A stretch of 43,653 bases of DNA from a virus: the IMG/VR virus record IMGVR_UViG_3300025000_000186, positions 1 to 43,653 of that record; one strand, given 5' to 3'. The notes under the pieces are model-generated. The model worked only from the letters and a program-made list of their open reading frames with translations. It did no database searches and had not been told where the DNA came from. This document shows, piece after piece, positions 9,442 through 43,108 of the stretch (positions within the stretch are counted from its first letter, which is position 1; every line of letters begins with the position of its first letter). The translations under genes were made by a program, and so were the position numbers.

Positions 9442-9531
9442 TACAATCTACCGCACAATAGGGCGCATGTACGCATATAAACACGCATAAACAAATATAA
9501 AATAAAATAAGAAAAGGATAGGGTGATTTCA

Positions 9532-9762
9532 ATGGTAAGATGTAAATTTAGGTGTCATTATAAAGATGCTCAAAATGTCGGTACGGAGCATGAATATGCC
9601 TTGATAAAAATGAGTCCTGTTAGTTCGGGAAGCAAAGAAAATGAGGAATTTTTTAAGTACACTCCCGGAGGGGATCTTTGTTTCTATTCGGTTAATCTTG
9701 CAGCTGCCGCCCAGATTGAGCAGGGCAAAGAGTACTACATCGACATTTCTCCCGCTGAATAA
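9532..9762 (+). CDS. small conserved phage protein
   Basis: This 76-aa protein begins at ATG 9532, preceded by AGGGTG; GTG 9523 is the alternative. It has the pattern VRCKFRCHYKD...EFFKYTPGGDLCFYSVN...QIEQGKEYYIDISPAE. I recognise this as a widespread small protein near capsid genes of diverse phages. Function is unknown. Beta-rich composition and position favour a minor virion or assembly protein. The next promoter begins only a few bases after its stop. Confidence 0.65.
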   Translation: MVRCKFRCHYKDAQNVGTEHEYALIKMSPVSSGSKENEEFFKYTPGGDLCFYSVNLAAAAQIEQGKEYYIDISPAE

Positions 9763-9768
9763 CCAAAG

Positions 9769-9797
9769 TCGACAAATGTAAATTAATGTTATATAAT
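9769..9797 (+). promoter_or_regulatory. promoter for the first RHH gene
   Basis: TCGACA (9769-9774), a 17-nt spacer and TATAAT (9792-9797) form a near-consensus sigma-A promoter, 20 nt before the RHH start. Its presence inside the morphogenesis block suggests independent, possibly lysogenic, expression. Confidence 0.65.
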
Positions 9798-9816
9798 CAC
9801 CTGTGGAGGTGGTTGT

Positions 9817-9996
9817 ATGGCAAGGCAAAATGTTAACATCACCCTGGAGCCTGGCGTATACGAAGAATTTTGTCTATACTGTGGCCCCAAAGGAATAAGG
9901 GTATCTCCCTGGGTAAACGCCAAGATGAAGGAGTTTATCGCGGAAGAAAAGGCAAAGGAAGCCGACAAATTAACTACCAAAAAAGGACGTCCATAA
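9817..9996 (+). CDS. Arc-type ribbon-helix-helix protein A
   Basis: This 59-aa protein starts MARQNVNITLEPGVYEEF behind GGAGGTGG. The early beta strand (NVNITLEP) followed by two helices, with GIRVSPWVNAKMKEFIAEEK, fits an Arc/MetJ ribbon-helix-helix repressor. It is paralogous to the protein at 10201-10374: both have EEFCxYxGxKGIxxSxWVN and KMxEFIxEEK. It has its own promoter and a terminator overlapping its 3-prime end, so it is monocistronic. Likely an autoregulated DNA-binding protein; the target is unknown. Confidence 0.65.
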   Translation: MARQNVNITLEPGVYEEFCLYCGPKGIRVSPWVNAKMKEFIAEEKAKEADKLTTKKGRP

Positions 9997-10007
9997 GGAC
10001 GTCTTTT
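9981..10007 (+). terminator. terminator of RHH gene A
   Basis: GACGTCC (9986-9992) pairs with GGACGTC (9997-10003) around an ATAA loop that contains the stop codon. AAAA precedes and TTTT follows. Confidence 0.75.
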
Positions 10008-10131
10008 CCTTTGAAAAAGCGCATAGGTAAAAGCCCTCAAACGCACGTTTTAAAATGCGCTAAAAAGCCCGTAAACCCTTGATATAAGCGGATTACAGAT
10101 ATATAGCGCAATCGGTAAAAAGGTAGTGTAT

Positions 10132-10147
10132 ACTAATGTGTATTAGT
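10132..10147. promoter_or_regulatory. dyad operator upstream of RHH gene B
   Basis: ACTAAT (10132-10137) and ATTAGT (10142-10147) form a perfect inverted repeat separated by GTGT, within three loosely repeated GTGTAT units (10126-10155). RHH proteins commonly bind short tandem half-sites, so this is a plausible operator for one or both RHH paralogues. No convincing promoter hexamers could be assigned around it. Confidence 0.5.
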
Positions 10148-10200
10148 GTGTATTATCAAAAGTAAGTAAATATCCGAAATACTCCAGGGGGTGGTTGACC

Positions 10201-10374
10201 TTGGCAGCAGTACGGCAAAACATGTCCCTTGATCCGAAAGTGTTTGAGGAATTCTGTAAATACGCCGGAAAAAAGGGAATAAAAATTTCTACTTGGGTTA
10301 ATTTGAAGATGCAGGAGTTTATTGAGGAAGAAAAGCTCCTGGAACAACTTCGAGAAATGAGAAAGCACTCTTAA
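10201..10374 (+). CDS. Arc-type ribbon-helix-helix protein B
   Basis: This 57-aa paralogue of the upstream RHH protein starts at TTG behind AGGGGGTGG. It shows the same layout: a short strand (RQNMSLDPKV), EEFCKYAGKKGIKISTWVN, and a second helix KMQEFIEEEKLLEQ. The two proteins differ in their strand residues, which contact DNA in this fold, so they may recognise different operators. A dyad and repeats lie upstream, and a terminator overlaps the stop. It is too short to appear in a standard ORF scan. Confidence 0.65.
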   Translation: MAAVRQNMSLDPKVFEEFCKYAGKKGIKISTWVNLKMQEFIEEEKLLEQLREMRKHS

Positions 10375-10394
10375 TCGGGTGCTTTTCTCTATTA
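10359..10394 (+). terminator. terminator of RHH gene B
   Basis: GAGAAAGCAC (10359-10368) pairs with GTGCTTTTCTC (10379-10389) with one bulged T. The stop codon lies between the arms. A short AT-rich tract follows. Confidence 0.65.
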
Positions 10395-10413
10395 TAAAAA
10401 TGGAGGGGATATT

Positions 10414-10587
10414 ATGCAAAAGACTCTTGGACAATACCTGAAGGAGAACTTTGAAAAAGGAATCATTGACCACAAAATCAGATCCATGGATGGAGAATCA
10501 TTTTATATTCATCCAGACGGTCATGACGGTGATACATTGGATTTCTGTGTTGAGGATAATGATTTGAAGCCCCAGGATGAAACATAA
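10414..10587 (+). CDS. 57-aa acidic hypothetical protein
   Basis: The ORF starts at ATG behind TGGAGGGG. The product is acidic, beginning MQKTLGQYLKENFEKGIIDH, with a middle FYIHPDGHDGDTLDF and a polar acidic tail. No membrane span or known motif is visible. Its strong ribosome binding site and compact spacing after a terminator suggest it is real. It may serve the RHH/recombinase island, but no role can be named. Confidence 0.5.
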   Translation: MQKTLGQYLKENFEKGIIDHKIRSMDGESFYIHPDGHDGDTLDFCVEDNDLKPQDET

Positions 10588-10591
10588 CCAA

Positions 10592-10835
10592 TATTTTTGC
10601 ATATTGCGCAGTAGTTGATAAAAGTCTGCAAACGTAGTCATTAGTAGCGAAAGCGGACTTACGGTAAATATGATGCGGTAGTTAGTACTAAAGTCCCAGG
10701 CAATATAAATCCATAGCCCTATTAATAAAAAAGGCCTTGACTGATATAATAGGCATAAGGTCTTTGCTGTAAATATTTTCATATAGCAAAGGGAGCCTCC
10801 GGCCACTAACCGGAAAGCCCCCTCACACAGACCCC
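10592..10835. ncRNA. structured intergenic region, possible ncRNA
   Basis: No convincing gene is present here. The stretch contains several dyads. AAGTCTGC (about 10622) pairs with GCGGACTT (about 10650, one G-U). CTTTGCT (10762-10768) pairs with AGCAAAG (10785-10791). TCCGG pairs with CCGGA near 10800. Two imperfect direct repeats (GCGCAGTAGTTGATAAAAGTC and GCGGTAGTTAGTACTAAAGTC) also occur. This density of pairing next to a recombinase suggests a structured RNA or a recombination/regulatory DNA element. It cannot be assigned to a known family from sequence alone. Confidence 0.35.
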
Positions 10836-10905
10836 TACTCAGGAGGGATTATGTGTTTGCAAAATAATTATACCATTTCGCCTCCTGAGTATCAATAGGG
10901 AGGCG
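10836..10905 (+). promoter_or_regulatory. candidate RNA switch controlling the recombinase start
   Basis: Two mutually exclusive hairpins are possible. TACTCAGGAGG (10836-10846) pairs perfectly with CCTCCTGAGTA (10881-10891). Alternatively CGCCTCC (10879-10885) pairs with GGAGGCG (10899-10905), which is the ribosome binding site of the recombinase starting at 10912. In the first state the site is free; in the second it is hidden. This is the layout of a translational switch; no ligand or trigger is evident. Confidence 0.5.
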
Positions 10906-10911
10906 TTTTAA

Positions 10912-11901
10912 TTGCAAGAGGAAATCATTATCAGAGTATTGGACAGGGCATCGGAATCATTAACCAATGAGCAGATCAACGAGCTCCGGAATATTCTATG
11001 TGAAGTGCTGCAGGAGTATACTGTTTCGCATGCATGTACGGCACTGGCACTATCCAACAATTTATCAGGTATGATCAGGCTATACCTGGCATCTAAAAAG
11101 CTTGACGGATTGTCAAAAAAGACTATTAAAAATTATCTCCTGATTCTTGACAAATTTGCTGAAAACATTCACATCGATGCAGAGTCTATTAATGCTATGA
11201 CGATAAGAATGTTTTTAGCCCAGTATTCAAAAGCTGGTGTTAAAAACAGTACCATGGCAACCATTATTAGCGTTTTAAAATCCTTTTTTTCATGGTTGCA
11301 TACAGAGGAATACATACCTAAAAACCCAATGAAAAAGATTCAAACAACAAAGTTCGAGAAGAGAGTCCGTAAGGCACTATCACAGGAAGAATTGGAAATG
11401 CTGAGATTGGCCTGTAAATCTTTAAGAGAAAAGGCTTTGGTTGAATTTTTCTATTCTACCGGCTGTCGGCTCTCCGAAGTAATGGCACTGAACCGAGATG
11501 ATATTAACTGGGGCACAGATTCCTGTATGGTGATCGGCAAGGGAAATAAGGAACGGCAAGTTTTTATAAATGCAAAGGCCAGGGTACATCTATGGAGGTA
11601 TTTGGATAGTCGTAAAGATCAGACAGAAGCTTTGTTTGTGTCCGATAAGAAACCACATGCAAGATTGCAAAGCAGGTCAATAGAAGATGTTTTTAAATTT
11701 TTGGGGAAACGTGCCGGAATAACTCAACATGTTTTTCCTCATTTGGTTCGGCATACCACGGCTACGGCTCTTTTGAACAATGGAGCAAGCCTGGCTGCAG
11801 TACAAAGAATACTAGGGCACGAAGACCCTGCTACAACTCAAATTTATTGTGCCTTGGATATCGATGAGATCCAGATGACCCACAGAAAACATTTAGCATA
11901 A
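10912..11901 (+). CDS. XerC/D-type tyrosine recombinase
   Basis: This 329-aa recombinase has an N-terminal SAM-like core-binding domain (about residues 55-145; SKKTIKNYLLILDKFAENI) and a C-terminal catalytic domain. The catalytic set is visible: STGCRLSEV (Arg, near 186), HLVRHTTAT (His and Arg, near 276-279), LGHED (His, near 302) and QIYC (Tyr nucleophile, near 312). The start is TTG behind GGGAGG. It is inserted between capsid and connector genes, far from the lysogeny region. The serine integrase at 27316 is the probable phage integrase, so this enzyme may resolve dimers, invert DNA or mobilise this island. Confidence 0.9.
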   Translation: MQEEIIIRVLDRASESLTNEQINELRNILCEVLQEYTVSHACTALALSNNLSGMIRLYLASKKLDGLSKKTIKNYLLILDKFAENIHIDAESINAMTIRMFLAQYSKAGVKNSTMATIISVLKSFFSWLHTEEYIPKNPMKKIQTTKFEKRVRKALSQEELEMLRLACKSLREKALVEFFYSTGCRLSEVMALNRDDINWGTDSCMVIGKGNKERQVFINAKARVHLWRYLDSRKDQTEALFVSDKKPHARLQSRSIEDVFKFLGKRAGITQHVFPHLVRHTTATALLNNGASLAAVQRILGHEDPATTQIYCALDIDEIQMTHRKHLA

Positions 11902-11920
11902 AAATTTATTCATAAGTTTT

Positions 11921-11980
11921 AAAATCCCAAGCGCTTGGGATTTTATATGAGCTCGTATATTCGGGCTCTTTTATTTTACT
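11921..11980 (+). terminator. perfect 24-bp palindrome and following hairpin
   Basis: A perfect palindrome centred on AAGCGCTT (11921-11944) is flanked by A-tract and T-tract and ends the recombinase gene, acting like a bidirectional terminator. A second weaker hairpin, GAGC/GCTC around TATATTC (about 11949-11967), is followed by TTTTATTTT. The palindrome could also be a binding or resolution site for the adjacent recombinase. Confidence 0.65.
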
Positions 11981-11998
11981 ATAAAGGTAGGTGATAAA

Positions 11999-27315: not shown

Positions 27316-28689
27316 CTAAAAATGTATGCTCACTCTATCATCTGGATAAATTCGTACAGCTTTAACATATTTGCTTAATAACAATCTTTTTTTGGCAGGG
27401 GAAGTCTCAGCTCTGACTTCTTCCATTACATTTTTTAATTCTCTTTTTATAGTCTCTTGAGAGTTCTTTTTTATTTCACTATTGATAGCTTTAAGTTTTG
27501 CCTCACACTCATCTTTTACTTTCCTATATTCCTCAATGGTAAAATCCTCACTCAAATATGCAGCTTTTGCTCTGGCTTTTTCCTTCTCAATTCTATCGAC
27601 TTGGTTTTTAGCTATATAATCTATAGATCTATCACTTTGCACGATGGCCTCCTGTCCTTCAATTATGTATTCTATTCCTTTCAATACTTGATTTTCTAAT
27701 TGATCAGCAGGATGATATTTACTATTGCTGCATCTTAATGTATTTTCATGCATCTTGTGACCACTGCAGACATAATAATAATAAGATTCTCCGTTCCTTT
27801 GTTTCCTAACATTTTTCCAAGATGCGTGAATGCCCATTTTTTTACCGCACACACCACACCGGGCTAATCCCAATAACATAAACTTTAATTCGTTCTTGCC
27901 TTTTGGTTCTCTTTTACACATTCTATCCACCAAATATTTTTGCGCCAATTCAAAGGTGCTGTTTTCTATTATTGGCTCATGCAAACCTTTGTAGATCTCT
28001 CCTGCATGTTTAATGTAACCAATATACTTAATATTTTTTAAAATATATAGTATGGTGTAATGATTCCATACGCACCCAGGCACAGGAGAAGATATGCCGT
28101 TTTCAGCAAGCCAATTTGATATTCTGGGAGTGCCATAGCCTTCATTGTACATGTTGAATATTTTTTTAACAACAGCCGCTTGTTCCTGATTTATACACAT
28201 GTGTCCCTTTTCTGTTGTGTACCCATAAGGAACCGACCCATTACTTAGTCCTTGTTTCACCCTTTCTCGCATACCTTTTTTGACTTCCTGGGCCAAATTC
28301 TTGATATAATACTCTGCCATTAGCTCGTGTAGTCCTGATACAAAGAATCCCATAGGATTATCTTCTATAGGTTCCGTGATCGATACTACGTTTATATTGC
28401 ACTTACTCAATTGCCCCTTTATTCTTTGTGATAGTTCGACTTTTCGGGCAAATCTATCGTATTTGTGAACTAAAATAATATGGAATTGCTTGCTTTCTGC
28501 ATCAGTTATCATTTGTTGGAATTGTGGCCTGTTTTCCTTTTGCCCGGAAATACCTTCATCTGCATATATTTTGTATACTTCAATATTTTCTTTTTTGCAG
28601 TATGCAGTTAATAAGTTTGTTTGTGCTGTCAAAGAATAACCCTCTACTTGCTCATCGGTTGACACTCTGACATATAGAGCTGCTTTCAC
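27316..28689 (-). CDS. int: large serine recombinase (phage integrase)
   Basis: This 457-aa enzyme catalyses attP x attB integration. The resolvase domain begins MKAALYVRVSTDEQVEGYS, with the nucleophile Ser10 and the HKYDRFAR block. The recombinase domain (about residues 150-260) contains PYGYTTEKG and the zinc ribbon CGVCGKKM (about 281-288) paired with CSGH and further Cys. A coiled coil at about 365-430 regulates directionality. The start is GTG behind AAGAAGG. It is the last gene of the leftward lysogeny operon, following the pheromone gene. No recombination directionality factor is identified. Confidence 0.95.
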   Translation of the reverse strand: MKAALYVRVSTDEQVEGYSLTAQTNLLTAYCKKENIEVYKIYADEGISGQKENRPQFQQMITDAESKQFHIILVHKYDRFARKVELSQRIKGQLSKCNINVVSITEPIEDNPMGFFVSGLHELMAEYYIKNLAQEVKKGMRERVKQGLSNGSVPYGYTTEKGHMCINQEQAAVVKKIFNMYNEGYGTPRISNWLAENGISSPVPGCVWNHYTILYILKNIKYIGYIKHAGEIYKGLHEPIIENSTFELAQKYLVDRMCKREPKGKNELKFMLLGLARCGVCGKKMGIHASWKNVRKQRNGESYYYYVCSGHKMHENTLRCSNSKYHPADQLENQVLKGIEYIIEGQEAIVQSDRSIDYIAKNQVDRIEKEKARAKAAYLSEDFTIEEYRKVKDECEAKLKAINSEIKKNSQETIKRELKNVMEEVRAETSPAKKRLLLSKYVKAVRIYPDDRVSIHF

Positions 28690-28812
28690 AGAAACACCTT
28701 CTTTGCAAAATATTACGCGCTCTGCGTATTGACCAAATATAATTTATAAGATAGAATAAGACTGTCTATAGTTTGTTTTTGAAGGAGCTTACTCCAGTGG
28801 GCTTCTTTCTTT
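28690..28812. other. gap between pheromone and integrase, candidate attP
   Basis: This 123-nt gap carries TACGC/GCGTA (28714-28728) and a longer imperfect dyad, ATAGA...TCTAT, around 28757-28776. Serine integrase attP sites are about 50 bp, imperfectly symmetric and usually beside the integrase gene. This gap and 27257-27315 are the two natural places. No strong promoter for the integrase is visible, so it may depend on upstream transcription. Confidence 0.3.
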
Positions 28813-28944
28813 TTATTTAAGCAGGTGCTTTGGCGTTTTAGGTTGGTTTATTAAAAACCATGATGCGGGCAATGCTGCGAGAGATCCAATTGCAAGCATT
28901 AATGATGCCACAACCGCCAACACTTTAGATGATACTTTTGCCAT
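28813..28944 (-). CDS. agrD-like: AgrD-like cyclic-lactone pheromone precursor
   Basis: This is a 43-aa precursor from ATG 28944, eight bases after AAGGAG; ATG 28950 is too close. An amphipathic basic N-terminus and hydrophobic leader (MAKVSSKVLAVVASLMLAIG) leads to PASWFLI, then NQPKTPKHLLK. The tail matches the AgrD C-terminal pattern xQPKxPxxL. The ring position, usually Cys, is Ser28, so the predicted signal is a Ser-Trp-Phe-Leu-Ile lactone, spaced like clostridial AgrD (ring of five, then H/N-Q-P). AgrB would be needed for processing and none is in the window. It lies between the receptor-like gene and the integrase on the same strand. Confidence 0.88.
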   Translation of the reverse strand: MAKVSSKVLAVVASLMLAIGSLAALPASWFLINQPKTPKHLLK

Positions 28945-28960
28945 ATCCATTACTCCTTTC

Positions 28961-28983
28961 GAATATTCAATATTCTAATTATA
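28961..28983 (-). promoter_or_regulatory. dyad and possible -10 upstream of the pheromone gene
   Basis: A perfect inverted repeat, GAATAT-TCA-ATATTC (28961-28975), lies just before the ribosome binding site of the AgrD-like gene. On the minus strand TATAAT (28983-28978) directly precedes it, but no good -35 is found. The pheromone may thus have a weak, regulated promoter within the operon. Confidence 0.4.
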
Positions 28984-29010
28984 TAATAAGATACAGCAAA
29001 AGTATATCGG

Positions 29011-29886
29011 TCAATTATTTACTGCGTGTAATAGCTCCGTCACCATCTTCATAGTTTTTTCATCCTTGCCCTTATCAGCTTCATCATAGATATCGACTAG
29101 TTTGCTTGTTATTTTGTCTCTCTGGCTTTCCTTATATTCTTTTTCGTACATATCCACTGCGATTCTGTTTATATAGTTCCTTACTATTACCTCCGAAAAA
29201 GCCATCAAAACGACAAATGGTATTATAAACAGCATCGAACATGCAAACAGGGCGTACATTGGACTAAATGATAAGAATGCGCCGTCAATTGCTACCAGTT
29301 TTGCCAAGAATAAAATATAGATAAATATTACAACTAATACTATCGTGGAGTTTTTTGTCAGGTCCTTATCTACTTTTACAATAGAAATTAAACTGACATC
29401 AACAGGCCTATTCTTAAATAAGAATTTTAATTTCTTAAATGCTGCCAAGTATAAAATTGAATACTGTATCATTCTTTCTGGTGTAGAAACCAAAAATCCT
29501 ACCAAAGGGTTGTTCTGTATTTCCGACAGCGATATGTGGGTAGCACTCATTATCATACTTACACACATTAAATCAGTACCGCCATAGATAACCATAGATA
29601 CAAAAACTGTAAGAAAAACTTTAAACACATTCTTTCTTGAAAGCACGGTAAACATGATGGTATTTACTATCAAGCCCATAACTATGCTTAAATTTTCATC
29701 AAGCCCGAACATCTTAGGCATATTTGCCAGTAAAGCTGGTAAGATGATTAGTAATAATTTTTTATTCCTATTTGCCTGGAATATAGATAATCCTTTTAAT
29801 ACAACAATTGCCATCATTGATATAAAAAATTGTTCAGGCAATGCTATTAAAATGGTGTACATTAAATAATGCAAAATGCTATTCAT
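29011..29886 (-). CDS. AgrC-like membrane receptor lacking a kinase domain
   Basis: This is a 291-aa protein from ATG 29886 behind GGGGGAGG; ATG 29892 is the alternative. It shows six or seven spans (about residues 5-30, 42-60, 66-84, 90-118, 138-160, 175-197 and 208-235), then a charged cytoplasmic helix ending LVDIYDEADKGKDEKTMKMV. This layout matches the sensor half of AgrC/FsrC receptors, but the His-kinase dimerisation and ATPase domains are absent. It lacks the AgrB GGxHA...C catalytic motif. It overlaps the repressor gene and precedes the pheromone gene, so a role as the pheromone receptor acting on the repressor is inferred. Confidence 0.72.
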   Translation of the reverse strand: MNSILHYLMYTILIALPEQFFISMMAIVVLKGLSIFQANRNKKLLLIILPALLANMPKMFGLDENLSIVMGLIVNTIMFTVLSRKNVFKVFLTVFVSMVIYGGTDLMCVSMIMSATHISLSEIQNNPLVGFLVSTPERMIQYSILYLAAFKKLKFLFKNRPVDVSLISIVKVDKDLTKNSTIVLVVIFIYILFLAKLVAIDGAFLSFSPMYALFACSMLFIIPFVVLMAFSEVIVRNYINRIAVDMYEKEYKESQRDKITSKLVDIYDEADKGKDEKTMKMVTELLHAVNN

Positions 29887-30265
29887 TCGCATTCCCTCCC
29901 CCAGTGTTGATTCTAAAAGTGAATTCCAATTTGTTCAGCATGTTTGCGGGTATATCTTTTGATATATTATACGCAAACTCCAAATAGGCTTGATTTTCTG
30001 CTTTTAAAGCCCATTCAATAAGTTGTTTTCTCTGTTCGTTGTTGCTGTCTATAGTTTCCATTCCTATTTTATAGCCATATAATTCCTTTAGGCTCATTCC
30101 AAACGCTGTTGCGAACTTTTGTATTGTAATAGAATCCGGATTGGTTTTTAAGTTCGCAATATCTGACATTGTTGCCTCGGAAACCCTGGCTTTCTTTGCC
30201 GTTTCCTTTTGTGTCCATCCTTTTTTATTAACTATGTGCATTATTACCTGCCTAATGTCTTCCAT
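29879..30265 (-). CDS. XRE-family lysogeny repressor (CI-like)
   Basis: This is a 128-aa regulator. Residues 1-65 are a helix-turn-helix domain (IVNKKGWTQKETAKKARVSE, then ATMSDIANLKTNPDSITIQKF). Residues 70-128 form a helical domain (EQRKQLIEWALKAENQAYLEF) that could mediate dimerisation or bind a partner. There is no LexA/CI-type autocleavage domain (no Ala-Gly and Ser-Lys dyad), so classical RecA-induced self-cleavage is unlikely. It is transcribed leftward from a consensus promoter and overlaps the receptor-like gene. The divergent gene is a Cro-like protein, a standard lysis/lysogeny pair. Confidence 0.88.
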   Translation of the reverse strand: MEDIRQVIMHIVNKKGWTQKETAKKARVSEATMSDIANLKTNPDSITIQKFATAFGMSLKELYGYKIGMETIDSNNEQRKQLIEWALKAENQAYLEFAYNISKDIPANMLNKLEFTFRINTGGGNANE

Positions 30266-30312
30266 TTAATGCCATTCACCTCCCTTTGTTAAATTCGCTG
30301 TAGTAAATACCA

Positions 30313-30351
30313 GCTAATGAGAATTATATTAGCATTTTCGCGAAATGTCAA
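30313..30351 (-). promoter_or_regulatory. leftward lysogeny promoter with embedded operators
   Basis: On the minus strand, TTGACA (30351-30346), 17 nt and TATAAT (30328-30323) form a perfect consensus promoter for the repressor operon. The palindrome TTTCGCGAAA (30336-30345) fills the spacer, and GCTAAT/ATTAGC (30313-30318 with 30328-30333) flanks the -10. These are probable operators for the repressor or the Cro-like protein. Confidence 0.75.
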
Positions 30352-30402: not shown

Positions 30403-30431
30403 TTGAATAATTCGCTAGAATGAATTATAAT
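30403..30431 (+). promoter_or_regulatory. early rightward promoter
   Basis: TTGAAT (30403-30408), 17 nt and TATAAT (30426-30431) drive the Cro-like gene and the early operon. AATTCGCT (30409-30416) lies in the spacer and recurs near 30293 on the other side of the control region, a likely operator half-site pair. Confidence 0.75.
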
Positions 30432-30462: not shown

Positions 30463-30765
30463 ATGAGAGGTACAAGAATAACTGAGAAGTTTATAAAATA
30501 CATCGGCAAAAGCCCATCTGATTTTGCGGAATTCACTGACAAAATAACTTGTGCGAGGGTAAATTTTCAAAGCGGCAAAAAAAGGGGTCGCGGGTTAAAG
30601 CTTGAAGAGGCTGCAAAAAAACTTGATATATCAGCAGGGTATCTTTGCGAGCTAGAAACAGGTAAAAGAAATGTACCAAGTTATATTATAGTTAACAAAC
30701 TAGAGGACGTATACAATTTTAATCCTGGAGAATTAGCCAATTCTTTAAAGGTGGCGATAAGATGA
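30463..30765 (+). CDS. XRE-family Cro-like regulator
   Basis: This 100-aa protein is the first gene of the early rightward operon. It has a helix-turn-helix (GLKLEEAAKKLDISAGYLCE, then LETGKRNVPSYIIVNKLEDV) in the C-terminal two thirds. It has an unusual 45-residue N-terminal extension, MRGTRITEKFIKYIGKSPSD. It is preceded by AATGGGGTG and a consensus promoter, and diverges from the lysogeny repressor. By position it should antagonise the repressor operon. Confidence 0.82.
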   Translation: MRGTRITEKFIKYIGKSPSDFAEFTDKITCARVNFQSGKKRGRGLKLEEAAKKLDISAGYLCELETGKRNVPSYIIVNKLEDVYNFNPGELANSLKVAIR

Positions 30766-35950: not shown

Positions 35951-36565
35951 GTGAATCGTAAATACAATAACGAACATATTGAATGGCTAAAGAAAAATAT
36001 CAACGGGTGCCATTTCGAGGAATTGACGGACTTGTTTAATGAGCGATTTGGAATGGGTTTGAGGGTTTGTGCAATGGTTTCAATGGCTGCTCGATATGGG
36101 CTGCACAATGGTCTAAATACACGGATCACGGAAAGCAATGTGAGCACTCAGTTCAAGAAAGGCTTTATTCCATGGAACAAAGGTAAGATGGGATCCGGAG
36201 GTTGGGAGCCTACACAATTTAAAAAAGGACAGATGCCTGTCAACTATAGACCTGTAGGCAGTGAGAGGGTTAATACAGAAGACTATGTGGAAATAAAGGT
36301 TGCGGATCCCAGAACGTGGACATACAAGCATGTTTTTATTTGGGAGGAACACAACGGACTTGTACCTAAGGGGCATGTAGTTATATTCGGGGATGGCAAC
36401 CGGCGAAATTTTGATTCCGGAAACCTGATCTTGGTATCTAAGAAACAGCTGGTAAGGCTGAACCAAAGCCACTTGATACAAAATGATGCTGATTTGACCA
36501 GGACGGCTATTATTATGACAGATATACATCAGAAGATCAGCGAAAGGAGAAAGGCGACACGATGA
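35951..36565 (+). CDS. HNH endonuclease (homing-type)
   Basis: This is a 204-aa protein from GTG 35951. N-terminal residues (YNNEHIEWLKKNINGCHFEE) form an HTH-like segment. FKKGFIPWNKGK and FKKGQMPVNYRPVGSER repeats follow, typical DNA-binding modules in this group. The HNH core lies at about residues 125-165: YKHVFIWEEHNGLVPKGHVV, then FGDGNRRNFDSGNL. One of the usual His positions is Phe (VVIFGDGN), a known variation. It overlaps the radical SAM gene. It may nick DNA for replication or recombination. Confidence 0.82.
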   Translation: MNRKYNNEHIEWLKKNINGCHFEELTDLFNERFGMGLRVCAMVSMAARYGLHNGLNTRITESNVSTQFKKGFIPWNKGKMGSGGWEPTQFKKGQMPVNYRPVGSERVNTEDYVEIKVADPRTWTYKHVFIWEEHNGLVPKGHVVIFGDGNRRNFDSGNLILVSKKQLVRLNQSHLIQNDADLTRTAIIMTDIHQKISERRKATR

Positions 36566-42562: not shown

Positions 42563-43108
42563 ATGAAGGTCGTACAACCTATACGTGAAAAAACTAAAAT
42601 TGATGAGATAAAAAAGATATTAAAAGAAAAAAATGAGCGAAATTATATCATGTTTGTTATTGGTATTTATACAGGACTCAGAATTAGTGATATTTTACAG
42701 TTAAAGGTAAAAGATTTAAAAAACCAAGATTATATTATCCTGAAAGAGAAAAAGACCAAAAAGAGCAGCCGCATATTCATTAATCCGATATTGAAGCGTG
42801 ATTTAAAGAAATATCTTGAAAACCGGATTGAGGATGAATATATTATTAAATCTCGGAAGGGAATTAATAAACCACTGCAACGAGATATGGCATATAAACT
42901 TTTAGCCAAAGCCGCAGAAGAACTTGGCATGGATGAGATAGGTTGTCATACAATGCGCAAGACATTCGGATATCACTATTACTCCAAGAAAAAGGATATT
43001 GGCTTTCTAATGCAACTCTTTAATCATTCTAAGGAGAGCATTACATTGAGATACATTGGGGTTAACCAGGACATGAGAGACAAAGCTATGAAAGATTTCA
43101 GGTATTAA
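42563..43108 (+). CDS. minimal tyrosine recombinase
   Basis: This is a 181-aa protein from ATG 42563 behind AGAAGGTGG. It is essentially only the catalytic domain, with no full N-terminal SAM-like domain. The set is TGLRISDILQL (Arg, near 39), CHTMRKTFGYHYY (His and Arg, near 128-131), LFNHSKES (His, near 154) and LRYIG (Tyr, near 163). Proteins of this kind lie just before HNH/terS in many Firmicutes phages. The role is unknown; a function at cos or in genome circularisation is possible. Confidence 0.85.
   Translation: MKVVQPIREKTKIDEIKKILKEKNERNYIMFVIGIYTGLRISDILQLKVKDLKNQDYIILKEKKTKKSSRIFINPILKRDLKKYLENRIEDEYIIKSRKGINKPLQRDMAYKLLAKAAEELGMDEIGCHTMRKTFGYHYYSKKKDIGFLMQLFNHSKESITLRYIGVNQDMRDKAMKDFRY

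Follow-up and report, generated by a model that had tools for sequence, protein, structure and literature searches.

The locus described here raises the question of whether a phage can regulate its own lysogeny with an Agr-type peptide sensed by a receptor that has no kinase. The window, i.e., the whole analyzed stretch of 43,653 nucleotides, is a 43.7-kb virus record with a tailed-phage layout comprising a terminase, a major capsid protein, tail genes, a lysis amidase, an integrase and control region, and replication genes. Since the integrase gene and the repressor operon are continuous, the record is probably a free or circular form rather than an integrated copy.

Gene order and control region of the operon

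On the minus strand, genes for an XRE repressor, a membrane protein with seven transmembrane (TM) helices, an AgrD precursor, and a serine integrase follow one another (Table 1), and all four genes of the initial annotation were recovered in place on that strand. The XRE and membrane-protein open reading frames (ORFs) share a 14-nt overlap, and gaps of 66 and 123 nt separate the membrane-protein gene from agrD and agrD from the integrase gene, respectively. The overlap, together with one consensus promoter, fits a single operon; the proposed placement of AgrD and the receptor in a repressor operon is thus supported by gene order and overlap. The four-gene arrangement, taken with the AgrC family link described below, is well beyond chance. 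We expect attP within the agrD-integrase gap, its predicted site. An Rfam search of the window revealed no known RNAs.

The control region has the layout of CI-type lysogeny control: the XRE gene and an early HTH gene point away from each other across promoters and repeats, and an integrase gene is nearby. Two AATTCGCT-type repeats were present, one downstream of the operon promoter and the other in the spacer of the second promoter; they are positioned as operators would be and are candidate operators. The repressor has an N-terminal HTH followed by a three-helix C-terminal part (AlphaFold pLDDT of ~90 across the HTH).

Table 1. Features of the repressor operon, its control region, and the adjacent integrase gene in the window
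Feature	Position	Strand	Basis
Serine integrase (large serine recombinase), GTG start	27316-28689	-	Resolvase, Recombinase, and zinc ribbon domains; PHROG 95, E 2e-115
agrD-integrase gap; hairpin with T-run on plus strand	28690-28812		Expected place of attP
AgrD-type pheromone precursor, 43 aa	28813-28944	-	TIGR04223, 34.3 bits; alignments
Hairpin enclosing agrD start codon in operon transcript	28932-29005	-	16-nt inverted repeat; RNA fold z-score -3.6
Kinase-less AgrC-type receptor, 293 aa, 7 TM, N-out/C-in	29011-29892	-	Profile scores, topology, clade
XRE (Cro/CI-type) repressor, 128 aa	29879-30265	-	HTH_3, E 4.5e-9
Operator-like repeat copy 1 (AATTCGCTGTAGTAAAT), 76% identical to copy 2	30292-30308		Predicted from repeat
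Promoter-like site TTGACA-17-TATAAT, 12/12 consensus, into XRE-receptor-AgrD operon	30323-30351	-	Consensus match only
Divergent promoter-like site TTGAAT-17-TATAAT, toward early region	30403-30431	+	Consensus match only
Operator-like repeat copy 2 (AATTCGCTAGAATGAAT), within divergent promoter spacer	30409-30425		Predicted from repeat
Divergent small HTH protein, Cro-like position	30463-30765	+	HTH_31, E 1.9e-7

The recombinases of this phage total three. Positions 9442-11998 hold a tyrosine recombinase gene (10912-11901), an odd site amid structural genes, as well as a stretch of ~1.1 kb in which no ORF is convincing; on either side lie the gene for a GDSL-type hydrolase and one resembling a head-tail connector gene. 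Homologues of this recombinase occur in G014 and G007. A small tyrosine recombinase of 181 aa (PF00589) is encoded near the right end (42563-43108, plus strand).

Identity of the membrane receptor and the pheromone precursor

The membrane protein showed no significant match in Pfam, NCBIfam, or PHROGs. Its AlphaFold model (pLDDT 67) contains seven TM helices, and the distribution of Lys plus Arg residues per loop (1/4/0/3/1/5/0/11) indicates an N-out, C-in orientation. When the protein was used as the sole tblastn query against 398 genomes of one phylum, nine weak matches were obtained, seven of which directly adjoin Pfam-called AgrB genes (E values of 1e-30 to 1e-38); of the other two, one lies by a GHKL-like kinase gene and the second (L022/L029) is a kinase-less receptor pair. 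A profile of AgrB-linked chromosomal sensors gave the window protein 45 bits (best of 1000 shuffles, 4), and its profile scores of 45 and 69 bits compare with at most ~4 across 1000 shuffles. In the reverse test, a sensor of the same family was present in 71 of the 110 loci gathered by AgrD alone, and the sensor profile found none in 198 kb of control loci. Because of these two independent tests (profile versus shuffles, and AgrD-only loci versus control loci), the membrane protein is, by sequence, an AgrC-type sensor. The label "AgrC-like" in the initial annotation was thus borne out by both tests, as well as by the tblastn neighbors.

Direct relatives of the receptor were found neither among viral contigs and genome contigs nor among phage or plasmid records; relatives were reached only via whole-genome tblastn, profiles, and AgrD DNA patterns. 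A structure search with the receptor model, whose pLDDT is only 67, against the PDB and viral models returned nothing below an E value of 0.9. The receptor tail as a decayed kinase dimerization domain was rejected: it scored no better than shuffles, and a DHp remnant was absent.

The AgrD precursor proposed from the letters alone was confirmed by the NCBIfam model quorum_AgrD (TIGR04223), with 34.3 bits against a curated cutoff of 19 and an E value of 1.8e-8. A Shine-Dalgarno sequence (AAAGGAG) lies ahead of agrD, and the product aligns end to end with AgrDs adjoining AgrB. It has the conserved PxxP tail of AgrD (QPKTPK), and its AgrB-recognition tail reads NQPKTPKHLLK. AgrD rings end before the residue preceding the QP/EP tail, as in the Staphylococcus aureus model CDFIM-DEP, and the ring of the window AgrD is therefore predicted to be SWFLI. 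Ser is found in 10 of the 11 AgrDs of the compared set where most AgrDs have Cys, so that a lactone, not a thiolactone, is expected. Among the compared AgrDs, the predicted ring residues are diverse (23% identity), whereas the AgrB-recognition tail is conserved (72%); such a variable ring with a kept processing tail would be as expected for pheromone types. The hairpin around the agrD start codon may tie agrD translation to that of the receptor, as a lock that ribosomes would open on reaching the end of the receptor gene.

The other Agr components were sought by profile. AgrB (PF04647) was absent from the window, and the same profile was positive in five control viral records; likewise, neither an AgrC-type kinase nor an AgrA-type (LytTR) response regulator was found in the window, with controls positive. 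Since the phage is without AgrB, an absence that the initial annotation did not remark on, the pheromone would need host AgrB for processing. The description of the receptor as kinase-less held insofar as the window has no kinase, but this property is not special alone. Among 110 chromosomal AgrD loci (L093 to L202) from the 398 genomes, 68 of the 71 with an AgrC-type sensor have it as an ORF of its own, ~160 aa long; a separate kinase ORF was nearby in 30 of these 68 and absent from the fetched stretch in 38. Judging from these loci, AgrC sensors that are split or have no kinase seem widespread among Bacillota, and we know of no description of this. Chromosomes frequently carry AgrC-type sensors on their own, so the novelty lies in coupling one to a phage repressor; the phage type differs in receptor length (about 245 to 340 aa), in having AgrD as a direct partner, and in its XRE neighbor.

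The split sensors bring up a relay via the host, in which the phage senses its own peptide for lysogeny and the receptor, complexed with a GHKL kinase or response regulator of the host, works through that host protein on phage promoters. The receptor could pair with a host kinase in this way, given that a split sensor is accompanied by a separate kinase ORF in 30 of the 71 chromosomal loci. We nevertheless regard such a relay as quite improbable, since it needs compatible host kinases and leaves the constant XRE neighbor described below unexplained.

As a separate observation, up to five paralogous short AgrC-type sensors are arranged in tandem in L064 (6757-9339, minus strand) and also in L063 (7192-8986), between a response regulator on one side and a kinase-like gene plus AgrB on the other. 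These arrays are possibly a bank of pheromone receptors.

The trio and long receptors in other loci

The initial annotation had predicted that the trio of XRE, receptor, and AgrD would co-occur elsewhere, and we found it in the same order and on the same strand in two further phages, L089 and L213. The former, a 34-kb phage contig found by an AgrD DNA pattern in viral contigs, encodes an XRE protein of 191 aa, a receptor of 246 aa, and an AgrD of 41 aa, spaced by 18 and 4 nt, with a second XRE gene and then a tyrosine integrase gene downstream of AgrD. The latter, a 70.9-kb phage record found by a second pattern, carries the genes for XRE (210 aa), receptor (244 aa), and AgrD (47 aa) at its extreme end. 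AgrB, an AgrC-type kinase, and a LytTR-type regulator were not found by profile in these two records, either of which may be incomplete, and that of L089 probably is. The predicted rings differ among the window, L089, and L213 (SWFLI, STFWF, and SFLWG, respectively). The L089 and L213 receptors are only 18 to 23% identical to that of the window, and neither shares its long cytoplasmic tail, theirs being short. Early genes are partly common to the three phages (e.g., a radical-SAM-like gene at 36562; seen by eye), and therefore the trio may have one origin, although the low receptor identity and the differing rings weigh on the other side.

In viral contigs, an AgrD pattern with QPE for QPK gave zero matches. 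The remaining AgrD-pattern matches were set aside because they lay inside long ORFs or in other frames. Among 15 records related to the window by terminase, none had an AgrD or receptor match. A literature search, whose coverage of subscription journals was thin, yielded no description of the trio.

Long receptors also occur in two chromosomal loci (L029 and L061), which have one or more receptors and AgrD with a convergent XRE gene, and in six large viral contigs (L072 to L076 and L083) with the order PemK, receptor, AgrD, PemK with an N-terminal extension, and AgrB; in most of the six, a DUF5317 gene lies ahead of the receptor. All 14 long receptors, that of the window included, fall into a single clade (support, 0.994) that excludes the 57 chromosomal sensors compared. 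Chromosomes seldom match the long-receptor profile: 1 of 398 genomes did so in the phylum, and 59 genomes of another class gave a single match, to a short sensor. XRE adjoins the long receptor in all five non-PemK-type loci versus 1 of 110 chromosomal AgrD loci within ~2 kb (Fisher P = 7e-7, computed on 4/4 versus 1/110 with L213 left out). Since the loci were found by AgrD or receptor, the XRE neighbor was not built into the search. Besides, a C-terminal motif, N..Y[LI]..A..I, is present in 5 of 5 trio XREs versus 0 of 18 other XREs compared, a small sample, and L079 has a looser version of it; as a sign of a link to the receptor, the motif is suggestive only.

The PemK-type cassettes lie near DndB-like and tyrosine-recombinase genes, and a second receptor copy follows AgrB in two contigs. 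An XRE domain in the PemK fusions of the six contigs is not claimed, as the scores were at most 9 bits and a Pfam HTH match was absent. The position of receptor and AgrD between two PemK/MazF-type genes in these contigs would suit a toxin- or bacteriocin-like cassette, with a membrane-active AgrD, the 7-TM protein as immunity, and XRE as regulator. We find this very improbable indeed, because the AgrB-recognition tail is strictly kept while the ring varies, the same six contigs carry AgrB, and the membrane protein belongs to the agr sensor family.

The slot beside the integrase bears on the role of the operon. Phage G014, whose terminase is 73% identical to that of the window, carries a run of XRE, an ImmA/IrrE-type peptidase (PF06114; E = 1.7e-10), and serine integrase (L203, 1537-4609) in the slot of the window's XRE-receptor-AgrD-integrase run. 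In ICEBs1 and similar elements, ImmA acts as the antirepressor. The presence of receptor and AgrD in the ImmA slot fits a role in repressor control, but lysogenic cargo also tends to gather near attP. Genes beside attP being often cargo, the operon might instead serve interference with host quorum sensing, i.e., lysogenic conversion: the AgrD peptide would activate or block host agr, the receptor would be a decoy or the partner of a host kinase, and XRE would take no signal. A recognizable output component is absent from the phage, and chromosomal sensors are often split from their kinase, so that the phage sensor could join a host kinase. The Clostridium difficile phage phiCDHM1 has been read likewise: its agr3 locus, with agrB, agrD, and an agrC carrying a HATPase domain but no agrA, lies close to the endolysin gene, and its agr genes were interpreted as interference with host quorum sensing (PMC3901668). 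The HATPase domain also means that the initial annotation was right to contrast this phage with the window. Interference with the host appears rather unlikely to us, however. The receptor, besides AgrD, stays with XRE in five loci; the long receptors are a clade of their own apart from host sensors, with diverse rings; and cargo would hardly be expected to hold its order with the repressor where receptors are only ~20% identical.

Proposed mechanism and relation to known systems

In our judgment, the odds are slightly in favor of the operon being an Agr-type peptide-signaling module within a phage lysogeny operon, acting on lysogeny and relying on host AgrB for processing. A lysogen would transcribe the XRE-receptor-AgrD operon from the promoter at 30351, and host AgrB would help to trim, cyclize, and export the AgrD peptide, giving a Ser-Trp-Phe-Leu-Ile lactone. 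The receptor would bind this peptide outside and alter the activity or availability of the XRE repressor inside, the signal passing from receptor to XRE with no two-component relay encoded by the phage. If the ImmA slot and arbitrium are a guide, the unliganded receptor would antagonize the repressor and the peptide, reporting many lysogens, would favor lysogeny, although this sign is a guess. It is reasonable to suppose that a cyclic peptide is made via host AgrB and sensed by the receptor; more tentatively, the receptor may change XRE directly. Points in favor of this direct step are the gene overlap, the constant pairing, the absence of phage relay genes, the ImmA slot, and the shared XRE motif. 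On the other side, as the receptors of L089 and L213 have only a short cytoplasmic tail, a conserved output domain is not visible, and since there is also no dimerization-helix remnant, contact between receptor and XRE would have to use the cytoplasmic loops.

We are more doubtful, at somewhat less than an even chance, of the general form of this proposal, namely, that kinase-free Agr receptors on phages and mobile elements pass an extracellular cyclic peptide signal directly to XRE with no phosphorelay, the pheromone being finished only in AgrB hosts. The trio points to a means, so far undescribed, by which viruses would gauge their own abundance. To our knowledge, detailed accounts of peptide communication in phages mostly concern cytoplasmic RRNPP-type receptors, and the agr genes of phiCDHM1, which come with a kinase, have no evident link to a lysogeny switch. 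What is new is that at least three phages have an agr pheromone gene and receptor inside the operon of their repressor. If our reading is true, there would be a membrane-based route for virus-to-virus signaling, AgrC-type receptors would signal kinase-free, and a virus would depend on a host enzyme to complete its signal. Because the operon and the peptide are short, the system is testable in a single reporter strain.

Compared with known systems, the operon resembles the ImmR-ImmA pair of ICEBs1 in being a two-gene control unit between the early region and the integrase, but the peptidase is replaced in the window by receptor and AgrD: an XRE gene is present, the next gene is the receptor, and no M78 match was found. 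It shares the AgrD precursor and an AgrC-type transmembrane sensor with the agr system (AgrB-AgrD-AgrC-AgrA), whereas the window phage is without AgrB, a kinase domain, and AgrA and has an XRE repressor in the operon instead. Like phiCDHM1, it has phage-borne agr genes including AgrD; AgrB and a kinase are present there, and the window has neither, its genes lying in a repressor operon. Stand-alone AgrC-type sensors by AgrB-AgrD on Bacillota chromosomes belong to the same sensor family and often have no kinase ORF close, but they are short (~160 aa), accompanied by AgrB and often by a separate kinase, and almost never by XRE. Finally, arbitrium (AimR-AimP-AimX) and phage RRNPP systems are alike in placing a phage peptide beside its receptor in a proposed lysis/lysogeny setting. 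Those systems use linear peptides imported to cytoplasmic receptors, whereas the precursor in the window is an AgrD, of the cyclic peptide type, and its neighbor is a 7-TM receptor rather than a cytoplasmic TPR receptor.
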